This document shows positions 45,596 through 49,646 of a stretch of 64,000 bases of DNA, in pieces. The notes beneath the pieces are model-generated. The model searched no databases. It saw nothing but the letters and a program-made list of their open reading frames with translations, and had not been told where the DNA came from. Both the position numbers and the translations under genes were made by a program. The stretch's first letter is position 1. Each line of letters opens with the position of its first letter. The DNA is taken from contig NZ_SDZL01000005.1 of assembly GCF_004210735.1 (NCBI RefSeq), positions 1 to 64,000 of the forward strand. The letters are read 5' to 3'. Source of the stretch: Brevundimonas sp. Its GTDB lineage: Bacteria; Pseudomonadota; Alphaproteobacteria; Caulobacterales; Caulobacteraceae.

Positions 45596-46780
45596 GTGAT
45601 CCAAGCGTCAGGAGCCCCGATGCCCTCGTTGACCGACAGAACACGCCTGATCGCCGGCGCCACGAGACGGGGCGGTGGCCGTCGTCCCGTCAATCCGCCA
45701 ATCGAACGCGCCTCGACCATGCTCAGTGACCGTGTGGCGGACATGCGCGATCCGTCGCTGGGCCCGCTTTACGGCCTGGATGGAACCAGCGCTGCGCGTG
45801 AGTTGCGCGCCGCCGTCGCCGATCTGGAGGGCGCGGCCGACGCCTGGCTGACACCCTCGGGGCTGTCTGCTGTCACCGTCCCCCTGCTGGCTCTTGCCCG
45901 GCCGGGCGACGAAATATTGACGACCGACGCCGCCTACGGTCCCACGCGCCGTTTTCTGACGCGGCATATGGGTCAGCGTGGTGTCGCCTCGCGATTTCAT
46001 CCCGCCGCCGCCTCTGCCGCCGACATCCTGTCGATGCTAACGGAACGCACCCGGGTGTTGCTGATCGAATCGCCCGGCTCGCTGACATTCGAAATGCTGG
46101 ATGTTTCCGCCTTGGCCGCTGCCTGTCGCGAGCGGGGCGTTCTGACCGTCATGGATAACACTTGGGCGGCGGGTCTGGCGTTCCGCCCCCTGGCGCAAGG
46201 CGTCGACATCAGCGTTCAGGCCCTGACCAAATACGCTGCGGGCCATTCCGATCTGCTGATGGGTTCTATCGCGCTCAGTGATCCCGAACTGAACCGGGCG
46301 ATCTGCGAGACGATTGAGGACCTGGGCTGGCATGTCTCGCCCGACGACGCCTGGCTGGCGCTGCGCGGACTGCGGACGCTGCCTCTGCGTTATGAACAGC
46401 AGGCCCGATCCGCGCTGACGATCGCCGAATGGCTGACCGCCCGGCCCGAAGTCGCGACGGTCCTTTATCCCGCCCTGCCCGGCTCTGTGGGGCATGACCT
46501 ATGGGCGCGAGACTATACGGGTGCGGCGGCGCTGCTGGGGGTCGTGCTCAAGGATGGCGCCATGGCCCAGGCCCATCGCCTGCTGGACGCCCTGACCCTG
46601 TTCGGCCTGGGCTATTCGTGGGGCGGATTTGAAAGTCTGGCGACGTATGAGACGCCGCAGCTGGCTTTCCGCCAGACGCGGCCCGACCTGCCCGGCTCGC
46701 TTCTGCGACTGCACATTGGGCTGGAAGACCCTGTCGACCTGATCGCCGACCTGGAGCAGGCGTTCGCGGCTTTGGCATAA
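45596..46780 (+). CDS. metC: Cystathionine beta-lyase (PLP Cys/Met metabolism family)
   Basis: YGLDGTSAARELRAAVADLEGAADAWLTPSGLSAV...VMDNTWAAGLAFRPLAQGVDISVQALTKYAAGHSDLLMG. Confidence 0.93.
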   Translation: MIQASGAPMPSLTDRTRLIAGATRRGGGRRPVNPPIERASTMLSDRVADMRDPSLGPLYGLDGTSAARELRAAVADLEGAADAWLTPSGLSAVTVPLLALARPGDEILTTDAAYGPTRRFLTRHMGQRGVASRFHPAAASAADILSMLTERTRVLLIESPGSLTFEMLDVSALAAACRERGVLTVMDNTWAAGLAFRPLAQGVDISVQALTKYAAGHSDLLMGSIALSDPELNRAICETIEDLGWHVSPDDAWLALRGLRTLPLRYEQQARSALTIAEWLTARPEVATVLYPALPGSVGHDLWARDYTGAAALLGVVLKDGAMAQAHRLLDALTLFGLGYSWGGFESLATYETPQLAFRQTRPDLPGSLLRLHIGLEDPVDLIADLEQAFAALA

Positions 46781-46786
46781 GGGCGG

Positions 46787-46835
46787 CGCGCCCAGCAGGA
46801 CTCGAACCTGCACCCCCCTGCTGAGAAGGCAGGTG
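46787..46835 (-). pseudogene. 3' half of split tRNA-Arg(TCT)-type gene
   Basis: RC: CACCTGCCTTC-TCAGCAGG-GGGGT-GCAGGTTCGAGTCCTGC-TGGGCGC-G; no acceptor/D-arm upstream. Confidence 0.82.
46825..46835. repeat. Left copy of duplicated 11-bp att core GAAGGCAGGTG
   Basis: Identical to 49292-49302. Confidence 0.8.
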
Positions 46836-46858
46836 AAAATGAATAAAAACAACGCCGT

Positions 46859-46922
46859 CGTCCAACTGTTCTGCCAATGTTCGCTATCGTAGAATCAATG
46901 GGTTACAGGTCGAGTTGGACGG
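46859..46922. repeat. Left-end candidate integrase arm sites: CGTCCAAC (46859-46866) and GTTGGACGG (46914-46922)
   Basis: Same motif as repeats at 49208-49216 and 49231-49245, just inside the other end. Confidence 0.5.
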
Positions 46923-46969: not shown

Positions 46970-48079
46970 ATGAACAAGCCCGTCATCGCCTGCTTGGGGA
47001 ACTGTCAGAGCGGGGCTATCCGTGGGATTCTGCTTGCGATTCCTGAGGTCAAGGAACGCTTCGATGTTCTGTTCACGCGGCGGCCGCAGGATTTCGCCGC
47101 AATGCGCGACCGGGTTGCCGTTGTTGTCCAGCAGGCGACGCATAGCTGGGACGACTTCACCGTTGCCGACTTGCCGACCGGCGCGACCCACATTCGCTAC
47201 CCGGCGGCGCTGATCAACTACCCTTGGCCCCTCATCCCGTTTCAGCGTCGGGTCAAGGAGAGGACGGCTAGGGATGCACACTTTCCCTACACCATCTGCG
47301 ACGCCCTGGTTGATGAGTTGAGGGCCAAGGGCGTCCCTAAGGAAAGCCTGCTGGATGCCTACTTTTCGGTGGACGTGACCAAGCGGTTCCCGCTGGAGCG
47401 CCTCAGACGCATAAATGAGGCCAAGGCTCGCCAGATCGATGCCCTTTCCGACTTTCCGATTTGGGACCAAATGCAGGTGGGCCAGAGCATGAGGACCGCC
47501 AATCACCCCAACGGCCCGCTCCTGTCCTATATGGTAGCGCAGATCATCGAGCGGCTTCCACTTGCTGACGTAGCGGCGGCTCAGGAGGAGGCGGCAGCGC
47601 GAGTGACCGATTACGGCATTCAGCCTGTCGAGGCGCCCGTGCACCCACAAGTGGCCGATGCCTTGGGTCTGGAGTGGGCAAAAGAACGAAAATGGACCTT
47701 CTGGCTAGAGGGCGACTTCACGTTCGAGGAGCGCCTGCTGCGTCTGTACGACATGTCCTACAACGAGGCGTTTCAGGAGGGACGGGACAAGCTGGCTAAA
47801 GGTGAGGAGGCGATACACTCGTTTGAACAGGCCTCCCGCGAGTTGCCCGACAGCGCCATGGTTCACGCGTTCTATGCAACGGCTCTAATCAAGGCCGGCA
47901 GATGGAGCGAGGCGGCTGATGTGCGCGGACGGATATGGAAGCTTGATCCTAGCGACACCAATCGCACTCGTTATTGGACTGCTCTTCGGCGTGCGAAGCG
48001 GATGGATGAGGCCGACGCCATCCTTGCCGCAAATGACGGCTCGCCCTCACAAACTAATGCAATAGCCCCGGTCTCATGA
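46970..48079 (+). CDS. WcbI-type polysaccharide biosynthesis protein with C-terminal TPR repeats
   Basis: MNKPVIACLGNCQSGAIRGILLAIPEV N-terminus; C-terminal TPR-like SYNEAFQEGRDKLAKGEEAIHSFEQASRELPDSAMVHAFYATALIKAGRWSEAADV. Confidence 0.7.
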   Translation: MNKPVIACLGNCQSGAIRGILLAIPEVKERFDVLFTRRPQDFAAMRDRVAVVVQQATHSWDDFTVADLPTGATHIRYPAALINYPWPLIPFQRRVKERTARDAHFPYTICDALVDELRAKGVPKESLLDAYFSVDVTKRFPLERLRRINEAKARQIDALSDFPIWDQMQVGQSMRTANHPNGPLLSYMVAQIIERLPLADVAAAQEEAAARVTDYGIQPVEAPVHPQVADALGLEWAKERKWTFWLEGDFTFEERLLRLYDMSYNEAFQEGRDKLAKGEEAIHSFEQASRELPDSAMVHAFYATALIKAGRWSEAADVRGRIWKLDPSDTNRTRYWTALRRAKRMDEADAILAANDGSPSQTNAIAPVS

Positions 48080-48232: not shown

Positions 48233-49036
48233 TCACTTCTCGTGGCTGAGGACTTTCTCGTCCGTACGGTAGAACTCCCGCTTGGGAGACGCCCTTCTAC
48301 ATATCGTTTTACCTTCACGCCGAAGGGATGCGGTCGCCGCCTGTTCCGGCGTGACGGCGCGGATGACCTGAAGACTCGTCCTCCAGGTGGGCAGGTCGGT
48401 AAGCGCGCGCCCGCCAGCCAAGTCGGCCTTCGTCGCCCCCACCACTTCAGCAGCAGCCTCGCCCGCCGCGGCCCCCGCTGCTTGACCAGCAATGGCCCCC
48501 GCAACAGCGGCGTCACCGTCCGCGTCCTGTGCCGCCTGAATGGCCGCACCGATGTCTGCAAGGACTTGTTGCGCGTCGGTCTTCGCCGCCTCCGCGCCGT
48601 CGCGCTCGGTTCCAGCCGCCTGGGCCCACCCCTGCGCCTCGGTTTCCGCCGCGATGGCGCCGGACTCGGCCGCTTCCGCGCGGTCGGCATCGGCTGCAAC
48701 AGCACCGGCGACTACCGCCGCCGCCTCCGTCACCACGGCGGCGAAGTCATCTTCGATCCGGTCCAGATCGCGGCGCATGTCCTGGTCGACGGCCGTCAGA
48801 CGGTTGAACGCCATATCGATGGCGCGCACCGGCACATTGTTTCGCCGGGCATAGTTGCTGGTCCGCGCCGGCGCGATATGGCGACGGATAAGCACCGTGC
48901 CGGTCGCGGGCGTGTTCAGCGTGACCGTCCCGCCCTGATAGCCGCCACCCTCCAGCAGCGTGCCGCTGAACGTGAACTGGCTCTGCGTCAGCCAGACGTC
49001 ATCGACCCGCACCTCCAGGTCCGCTTTCGCGAACAT
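48233..49036 (-). CDS. Phage tail-fibre N-terminal-like protein, likely truncated
   Basis: FAKADLEVRVDDVWLTQSQFTFSGTLLEGGGYQGGTVTLNTPATGTVLIRRHIAPARTSNYARRNNVPVRAIDMAFNRLTAVDQDM, the T7-like tail-fibre head-domain pattern, followed by Ala-rich repeats. Confidence 0.75.
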   Translation of the reverse strand: MFAKADLEVRVDDVWLTQSQFTFSGTLLEGGGYQGGTVTLNTPATGTVLIRRHIAPARTSNYARRNNVPVRAIDMAFNRLTAVDQDMRRDLDRIEDDFAAVVTEAAAVVAGAVAADADRAEAAESGAIAAETEAQGWAQAAGTERDGAEAAKTDAQQVLADIGAAIQAAQDADGDAAVAGAIAGQAAGAAAGEAAAEVVGATKADLAGGRALTDLPTWRTSLQVIRAVTPEQAATASLRREGKTICRRASPKREFYRTDEKVLSHEK

Positions 49037-49111: not shown

Positions 49112-49188
49112 TGGCGCGCCCTGCAGGACTCGAACCTGCAACCGTTCGCTTAGAAGGCGAGTGCTCTATCCGGTTGAGCTAAGGGCGC
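49112..49188 (-). tRNA. tRNA-Arg(TCT), intact, element-borne, CCA encoded
   Basis: RC folds: GCGCCCT TA GCTC AACCGGATA GAGC A CTCGC CTTCTAA GCGAA CGGTT GCAGG TTCGAGT CCTGC AGGGCGC G CCA (77 nt). Confidence 0.95.
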
Positions 49189-49207: not shown

Positions 49208-49245
49208 GTTGGACGGGCTACCGCCTGAAAGTTGGATGGACGGGT
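49208..49245. repeat. Right-end candidate arm sites GTTGGACGGG and GTTGGATGGACGGG
   Basis: Direct repeats near the right junction; motif shared with 46859-46922. Confidence 0.5.
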
Positions 49246-49291
49246 AAAATGCGTTGTATTTCAGCGACATAGAGAACGGGAAAACTGCTTG

Positions 49292-49302
49292 GAAGGCAGG
49301 TG
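49292..49302. repeat. Right copy of duplicated 11-bp att core GAAGGCAGGTG
   Basis: Identical to 46825-46835. Confidence 0.8.
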
Positions 49303-49327
49303 CTCTATCCGGTTGAGCTATGGGCGC
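49292..49327 (-). pseudogene. 5' half of split tRNA-Arg(TCT)-type gene
   Basis: RC: GCGCCCA TA GCTC AACCGGATA GAGC A CCTGC CTTC, then diverges (CAAGCAGTTTTCCCG); acceptor GCGCCCA pairs with TGGGCGC of the 3' half. Confidence 0.85.
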
Positions 49328-49340
49328 CCGAACTGGACGA

Positions 49341-49646
49341 TCAGTGCGTCCAGGACTGTTTGCGGTTGGTGGCGAAATTGTCGGCATAGGCCTTGATGAT
49401 CGCCGGCGCCTCGTTCGGCTCGTGCAGGCGGAACGGAATGCCGTGACGCTCGGCGTATTCGACAGCTTCTTCCTTGCTGTCGAAGGTCAGACGCACCTGG
49501 CCGTTCATGTCGCTGGAACTGGTCCAGCCCATCAGGGGATCGATGGTGCGGGCCGATGCGGGCTCGAATTCCAGACGCCAGTCGCGGCTCTTGGCCTTGC
49601 CCGACTGCATGGCGGTCTTGGCGGGGCGATAGATGCGCGCGAGCAT
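49341..49646 (-). CDS. ETC complex I subunit (NDUFS4-like)
   Basis: MLARIYRPAKTAMQSGKAKSRDWRLEFEPASARTIDPLMGWTSSSDMNGQVRLTFDSKEEAVEYAERHGI. Confidence 0.93.
   Translation of the reverse strand: MLARIYRPAKTAMQSGKAKSRDWRLEFEPASARTIDPLMGWTSSSDMNGQVRLTFDSKEEAVEYAERHGIPFRLHEPNEAPAIIKAYADNFATNRKQSWTH

Follow-up and report, generated by a model that had tools for sequence, protein, structure and literature searches.

A prophage remnant that very probably supplies the only AGA-decoding tRNA of its Brevundimonas host

An insert that splits the tRNA-Arg(TCT) gene of a Brevundimonas sp. is very probably a fossil left by a temperate phage that relied on tRNA-dependent lysogeny, and the tRNA that it carries would now be the host's only AGA-decoding tRNA. 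The insert lies in the window, the whole 64,000-nucleotide stretch of contig NZ_SDZL01000005.1 that was analysed.

The split host gene and its replacement

The broken gene, its flanks and the intact tRNA are marked by the following features:

45596-46780, + strand: host flank, a PLP-dependent cystathionine/methionine-gamma-lyase-like gene, which in several insert-free relatives (L035, L036, L044, L045, L053) adjoins tRNA-Arg(TCT) on the left
46784-46835, - strand: displaced 3' half of the host tRNA-Arg(TCT), with 3 substitutions relative to the intact allele, including CCA to CCG; 20.8 bits, under the RF00005 cut-off
46818-46835, - strand: left copy of the att core, 18 bp of the anticodon arm
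49112-49188, - strand: intact element-borne tRNA-Arg(TCT), called by ARAGORN; the only TCT tRNA found in the genome
49285-49302, - strand: right copy of the att core
49285-49327, - strand: 5' half of the host tRNA-Arg(TCT), with 1 substitution, T to C at the third anticodon position
49341-49646, - strand: host flank, an NDUFS4-like (ETC complex I subunit) gene, whose place upstream of tRNA-Arg(TCT) is conserved in the genus

The host gene is split in the anticodon arm, its 5' half adjoining the NDUFS4-like gene and its 3' half adjoining the PLP-dependent lyase gene. The core common to both halves, CTGCTKRGAAGGCAGGTG, is 18 bp long with 2 mismatches and is the anticodon arm itself; no tRNA is called at either junction, and the host tRNA is not rebuilt with this core. 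Relative to the intact allele, the broken halves hold four substitutions in total. Insert-free relatives possess a single intact tRNA-Arg(TCT) directly after NDUFS4, and in two of them (L036 and L053) an intact allele identical to the split one sits between the same two flanking genes. The element tRNA is absent from these relatives, which settles in its favour one of the two points on which the original prediction was said to depend. At L046, L050 and L069 the distance between NDUFS4 and the tRNA is larger, but no tRNA is split there and these loci were set aside.

The intact, CCA-encoded tRNA-Arg(TCT) proposed to lie inside the insert is borne out by the ARAGORN call, by an RF00005 score of 66.7 bits over the full model (Rfam), and by the cloverleaf fold obtained for its sequence. 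The sequence differences described earlier also hold, the element tRNA departing from the split host allele at 8 of 77 positions, which are confined to the anticodon stem, the variable loop and the 7-67 pair. It is, however, identical at 75 of 77 positions to the L034 allele, which is common in other species of the genus, and the two differences form one compensated anticodon-stem pair (C-G to T-A). The intact tRNA lies on the same strand as the broken 5' half and about 100 bp from it, as might be expected had the host tRNA been duplicated before the insertion and the element landed in one of the two copies. That history is scarcely credible, given the distance from the split allele and the closeness to the allele of other species, the location of the tRNA, with the integrase end on one side and the att arm sites on the other, just as in related viral contigs, and the finding of a tandem second copy in none of the insert-free relatives read.

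The second point on which the prediction depended was the presence of another functional tRNA-Arg(TCT) elsewhere, and none was found by covariance model or by pattern in the assembly, which comprises 2.83 Mb in 165 contigs and is 95.7% complete. The covariance model yields 38 tRNA genes, of which ARAGORN assigns TCT to one; the pattern for a tRNA with a CTTCTAA loop matches once; and the other arginine tRNAs are CCG, ACG and CCT. The assembly is without tRNA-Trp, -Tyr, -Gly(TCC), -Ala(TGC) and -Ile(GAT), and it is, strictly speaking, conceivable that an unassembled stretch contains another TCT copy, yet the pattern of the genus is one copy: the CTTCTAA-loop pattern matches in 123 of 131 genus genomes, nearly always exactly once, and the genomes without a match include two with divergent TCT copies (G056 and G116). 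Within the window, 22 AGA codons occur in 16 of the 36 non-overlapping ORFs of at least 200 aa, and the host is therefore expected to need an AGA-decoding tRNA.

These counts also bear on the reading of the insert as an ordinary prophage remnant, in which the tRNA-Arg served phage codon usage and the host reads AGA with another tRNA. Although tRNAs are common in phages and a few tRNA genes are missing from the assembly, this reading is very unlikely: no other TCT tRNA was recovered by either method, nearly all members of the genus have exactly one, at this site, and the isotype of the element tRNA equals that of the disrupted gene here and in two further genomes (G074 and G678). As for tRNA(CCT), it would be expected to decode AGG rather than AGA.

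The prophage remnant and related viral contigs

The insert measures 2.4 kb between the cores, and the following features lie within it:

46858-46867, - strand: putative integrase arm-type site, AGTTGGACGA
46913-46922, + strand: putative integrase arm-type site, AGTTGGACGG
46970-48079, + strand: cargo ORF of 369 aa with a WcbI polysaccharide-biosynthesis domain and TPR (PF18588, E 9.7e-15)
48233-49036, - strand: tail-fibre-like ORF fragment, the first ~98 aa of which are 58-64% identical to L250, L253, L254, L256-L259 and L265
49040-49108, + strand: tyrosine integrase remnant, the last 22 codons (ARDTTVARNAQIKRGIVTDNAA) and the stop codon, with the same C-terminal motif as in G128, G084, L233 and L234
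49207-49216, + strand: putative integrase arm-type site, AGTTGGACGG
49230-49239, + strand: putative integrase arm-type site, AGTTGGATGG

The element had been described as persisting without an integrase, which requires correction, as the 22 C-terminal codons of one survive; their end lies 3 bp from the element tRNA and faces it. Four putative arm-type sites resembling AGTTGGACGG lie two beside each core, against a window-wide rate of 0.67 per kb at no more than one mismatch, for a consensus drawn partly from this element. Phages of the same integrase family have similar arm-like sites by attP, and the matches to the tail-fibre fragment are themselves phages with that integrase family. The flanking arm-like sites and the tail-fibre match together identify the insert as a prophage remnant, which, judging from its sequence, appears to have been cut down to its two ends by a large internal deletion. 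With 2.4 kb left and both the integrase and the tail fibre truncated, it falls short of a living prophage. A tail-fibre query against the phage records gave no match, and weak Rfam matches to Plastid-ycf2 and RAGATH-25 fell under the cut-off and were dismissed. The remnant in G074 (L068) holds apparent sugar/FkbM-type methyltransferase genes, and these, with the WcbI-TPR gene, suggest that surface-modifying cargo is located near the ends of these prophages.

The arrangement is also present in phage DNA. Three viral contigs (L233, L234 and L235, of which L234 comes from a 40.5-kb contig and is near-identical to L235 in this part) encode a same-family integrase and, 224-338 bp downstream of it and convergent with it, an intact tRNA-Arg(TCT); arm sites are present as well. 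Their core is 15-16 bp of the anticodon arm, CCGCCTTCTAAGCGG(G), without other tRNA sequence around it, whereas in phages of the same family with long cores (~40-48 bp; Pro-TGG and Pro-GGG) no intact tRNA adjoins the integrase. Carriage of the tRNA before integration is thus seen in related viral contigs rather than in this very phage. These contigs were found with a family alignment of the integrase, whereas the G128 integrase alone as query found no viral contig; scans of the viral contigs for an attP-like site in the core context of this element, and for the pattern of an integrase end with a convergent tRNA, gave no match, and the L234 integrase retrieved only weak Roseobacter and Paracoccus phage matches from the phage records. 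The core is oriented oppositely in L233-L235 and G074 to its orientation in this element, G678 and G605, for which different integrase specificities are offered as a tentative explanation. By eye only, a promoter-like stretch (TTCACAA or TTCCCAT ... TGCTATC) was picked out upstream of the phage tRNAs (L233 6103-6180, L234 7498-7560, L068 3930-3990), and it is absent upstream of the element tRNA in the window.

Three outcomes at one attachment site

The tRNA-Arg(TCT) site exhibits three outcomes of integration: rebuilding on the 3' side, rebuilding on the 5' side, and replacement by a separate full tRNA. Replacement, which combines a broken host gene with a full tRNA within the element, is found in this genome, in G074 and in G678. 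The last belongs to another Caulobacteraceae genus, is 100% complete by tool estimate, and carries a remnant of ~2.9 kb at the same locus, in the order host 3' half, remnant with an integrase pseudogene, intact foreign tRNA-Arg(TCT), arm-like sites, 15-bp core and host 5' half. The TCT pattern in G678 matches the element tRNA and the displaced 3' half only. The G678 tRNA matches that of this element at just 63 of 77 positions and so was acquired separately. Two further genes, of 235 and 389 aa (L298 3776-4483 and 5012-6181), lie beside the integrase pseudogene. In G074, the integrase C-terminus is followed by a convergent tRNA-Arg(TCT) and then by the host 3' half; the host 5' half has been lost, and the pattern revealed no other TCT tRNA. 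Between the anticodon loop and the T arm, inclusive, the host 3' half of G074 does not differ from the element tRNA (L068 3854-3930 and 4064-4112), which suggests gene conversion or a longer phage core. The pattern of an integrase end with a convergent tRNA was found only in this genome among 398 members of the order, a sample without G074.

Prophages that rebuild the tRNA occupy the same attB gene. G128 (45 kb) and the Phenylobacterium MAG G605 (49 kb) have intact integrases of the same family, with the C-terminal motif of the remnant, and a tRNA rebuilt from a phage-borne 5' half; the 5' half is duplicated in both (L063/L064 and L221-L223), that of the rebuilt tRNA being phage-derived, as its promoter region probably is too. 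A second 3'-half copy lies 37-39 kb away in G001, G023 and G015 and 0.7 kb away in G109, as expected from reconstruction on the 3' side. Reconstructing prophages at this attB, unlike this element, carry no separate full tRNA, the host tRNA being rebuilt from a phage-borne half. A 2.1-kb remnant in G068 (L066), comprising a methyltransferase gene and, ahead of an intact tRNA, a 5' half that is truncated and mutated, is a decayed element of the 5'-side reconstructing type. In the genomes, all three replacement elements are decayed, whereas several reconstructing prophages at the same site measure 37-49 kb, although the numbers are small; an intact integrated prophage of the exact type described here was found in none of the genomes searched.

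Reconstruction by G128 and G605 within the same family, together with the rearrangements that remnants do undergo, lends some plausibility to a history in which this element was a normally reconstructing prophage and a rearrangement subsequently brought the rebuilt tRNA inside. Such a history is nevertheless most improbable, since both att junctions are in place with only the 18-bp repeat, the intact tRNA is a foreign allele, and the same layout occurs independently in G678 and, before integration, in the phage DNA of L233-L235.

Known systems, proposed history and lock-in

In tRNA-dependent lysogeny, the core at which the integrase cuts a tRNA gene is not long enough to restore that gene, and the missing tRNA is provided by the phage; actinobacteriophages including Fionnbharth, LeBron and Gaia use this strategy with cores of 8-17 bp, some related integrases have a long core and others a short one combined with a phage tRNA, and loss of the phage tRNA has been shown to prevent normal lysogeny (PMC10865867). 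The requirement was shown experimentally for tRNA-Lys(TTT), the other listed cases use Lys, Ile2 or Leu, and the authors left open how frequent the strategy is outside Actinobacteria (PMC10865867). This element shares with the actinobacteriophages a tyrosine integrase, an attB in a tRNA gene, a short non-rebuilding core, a cognate phage tRNA and related integrases that rebuild. It differs in that those are live phages of Actinobacteria with a demonstrated requirement, whereas this is a decayed remnant in Caulobacteraceae, specific for Arg(TCT), with a requirement deduced from gene content. In Sinorhizobium meliloti, two prophages resembling Mesorhizobium phage vB_MloP_Lo5R7ANS break tRNA-Leu(UAG) and carry a replacement (PMC11476347); the alphaproteobacterial host, the central disruption and a replacement closer to the tRNA of another species are all shared, but those prophages are intact in two strains, whereas here the prophage is dead and its tRNA fixed. 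As far as it is described in PMC10865867, prophage Lj965 of the Firmicute Lactobacillus johnsonii is similar in its non-rebuilt junction tRNA and cognate prophage tRNA. The mechanism is therefore already known, also in Alphaproteobacteria, and the new point is the repeated fixation of the phage tRNA. No earlier report of tRNA-dependent lysogeny with Arg(TCT) in Caulobacteraceae was found in the literature searched, and the present case extends the strategy to that tRNA and family.

In the proposed history, a tyrosine integrase would have recombined attP with an attB situated within the anticodon arm of the host's sole tRNA-Arg(TCT) gene, and, the shared core being only ~18 bp, the host tRNA would have been cut in two and not rebuilt. 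The phage would have kept its lysogen alive with a complete tRNA-Arg(TCT), acquired from a related bacterium and located between the integrase gene and the integrase-proximal attP arm. A later internal deletion would have removed nearly all of the phage and reduced the integrase to its 3' end, after which the broken host halves would have accumulated mutations and the phage tRNA, as sole AGA decoder, would have been kept by purifying selection; this order of decay is the one that we infer. Counting against this history are the brevity of the integrase remnant, the opposite core orientation in L233-L235 and G074, and the finding of intact versions only as viral contigs, never integrated in the genomes searched. 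The element tRNA has the orientation of the host gene and follows the broken 5' half at a distance of about 100 bp, and so could be expressed by read-through from the host side, both here and in G678. From the gene complement, it is predicted to be both expressed and essential.

Compensation for the disrupted tRNA by an element-encoded isoacceptor, as originally predicted, is strongly supported by the single TCT copy, the split native copy, and the same layout in viral contigs and two other genomes. Its retention as an addiction mechanism survives in part. A live prophage would not be addictive with respect to excision, as a working integrase could excise it precisely and restore the host gene. 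Once the integrase had been lost and both halves had been mutated, by four substitutions in all, there would be no simple route back, and loss of the element tRNA, including its deletion alone, is expected to be lethal. The present state is thus an evolutionary lock-in rather than an addiction module. More broadly, tRNA-dependent lysogeny probably acts as an evolutionary ratchet, in which the tRNA of a dead prophage stays as the host's only copy and phage alleles repeatedly and permanently take the place of essential host tRNA genes, a reading based on three fixed cases that arose independently at a single locus within one family (this genome, G074 and G678).

The end state of the mechanism would thus be a phage that dies while its tRNA becomes an apparently essential host gene, which makes it possible to test with what frequency core translation genes are replaced by phages and what keeps certain very small remnants from being lost. 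Shifts between the two strategies are likewise open to study, since one integrase family includes reconstructing and tRNA-carrying phages at the same attB: the L234 and G128 integrases are 65% identical over the aligned part, and G128 uses the same tRNA gene but rebuilds it.

Further replacements were considered where tRNA-Lys(TTT) lies beside an integrase in several Caulobacteraceae, and were rejected for the closely read L197, L199 and L201, in which the tRNA is at its native place with host sequence after it, as in ordinary reconstruction. Integrase relatives (L227-L231 and L273-L277) adjoin tRNA-Lys(TTT) or tRNA-Lys(CTT), and those that were closely read are native, rebuilt tRNAs.
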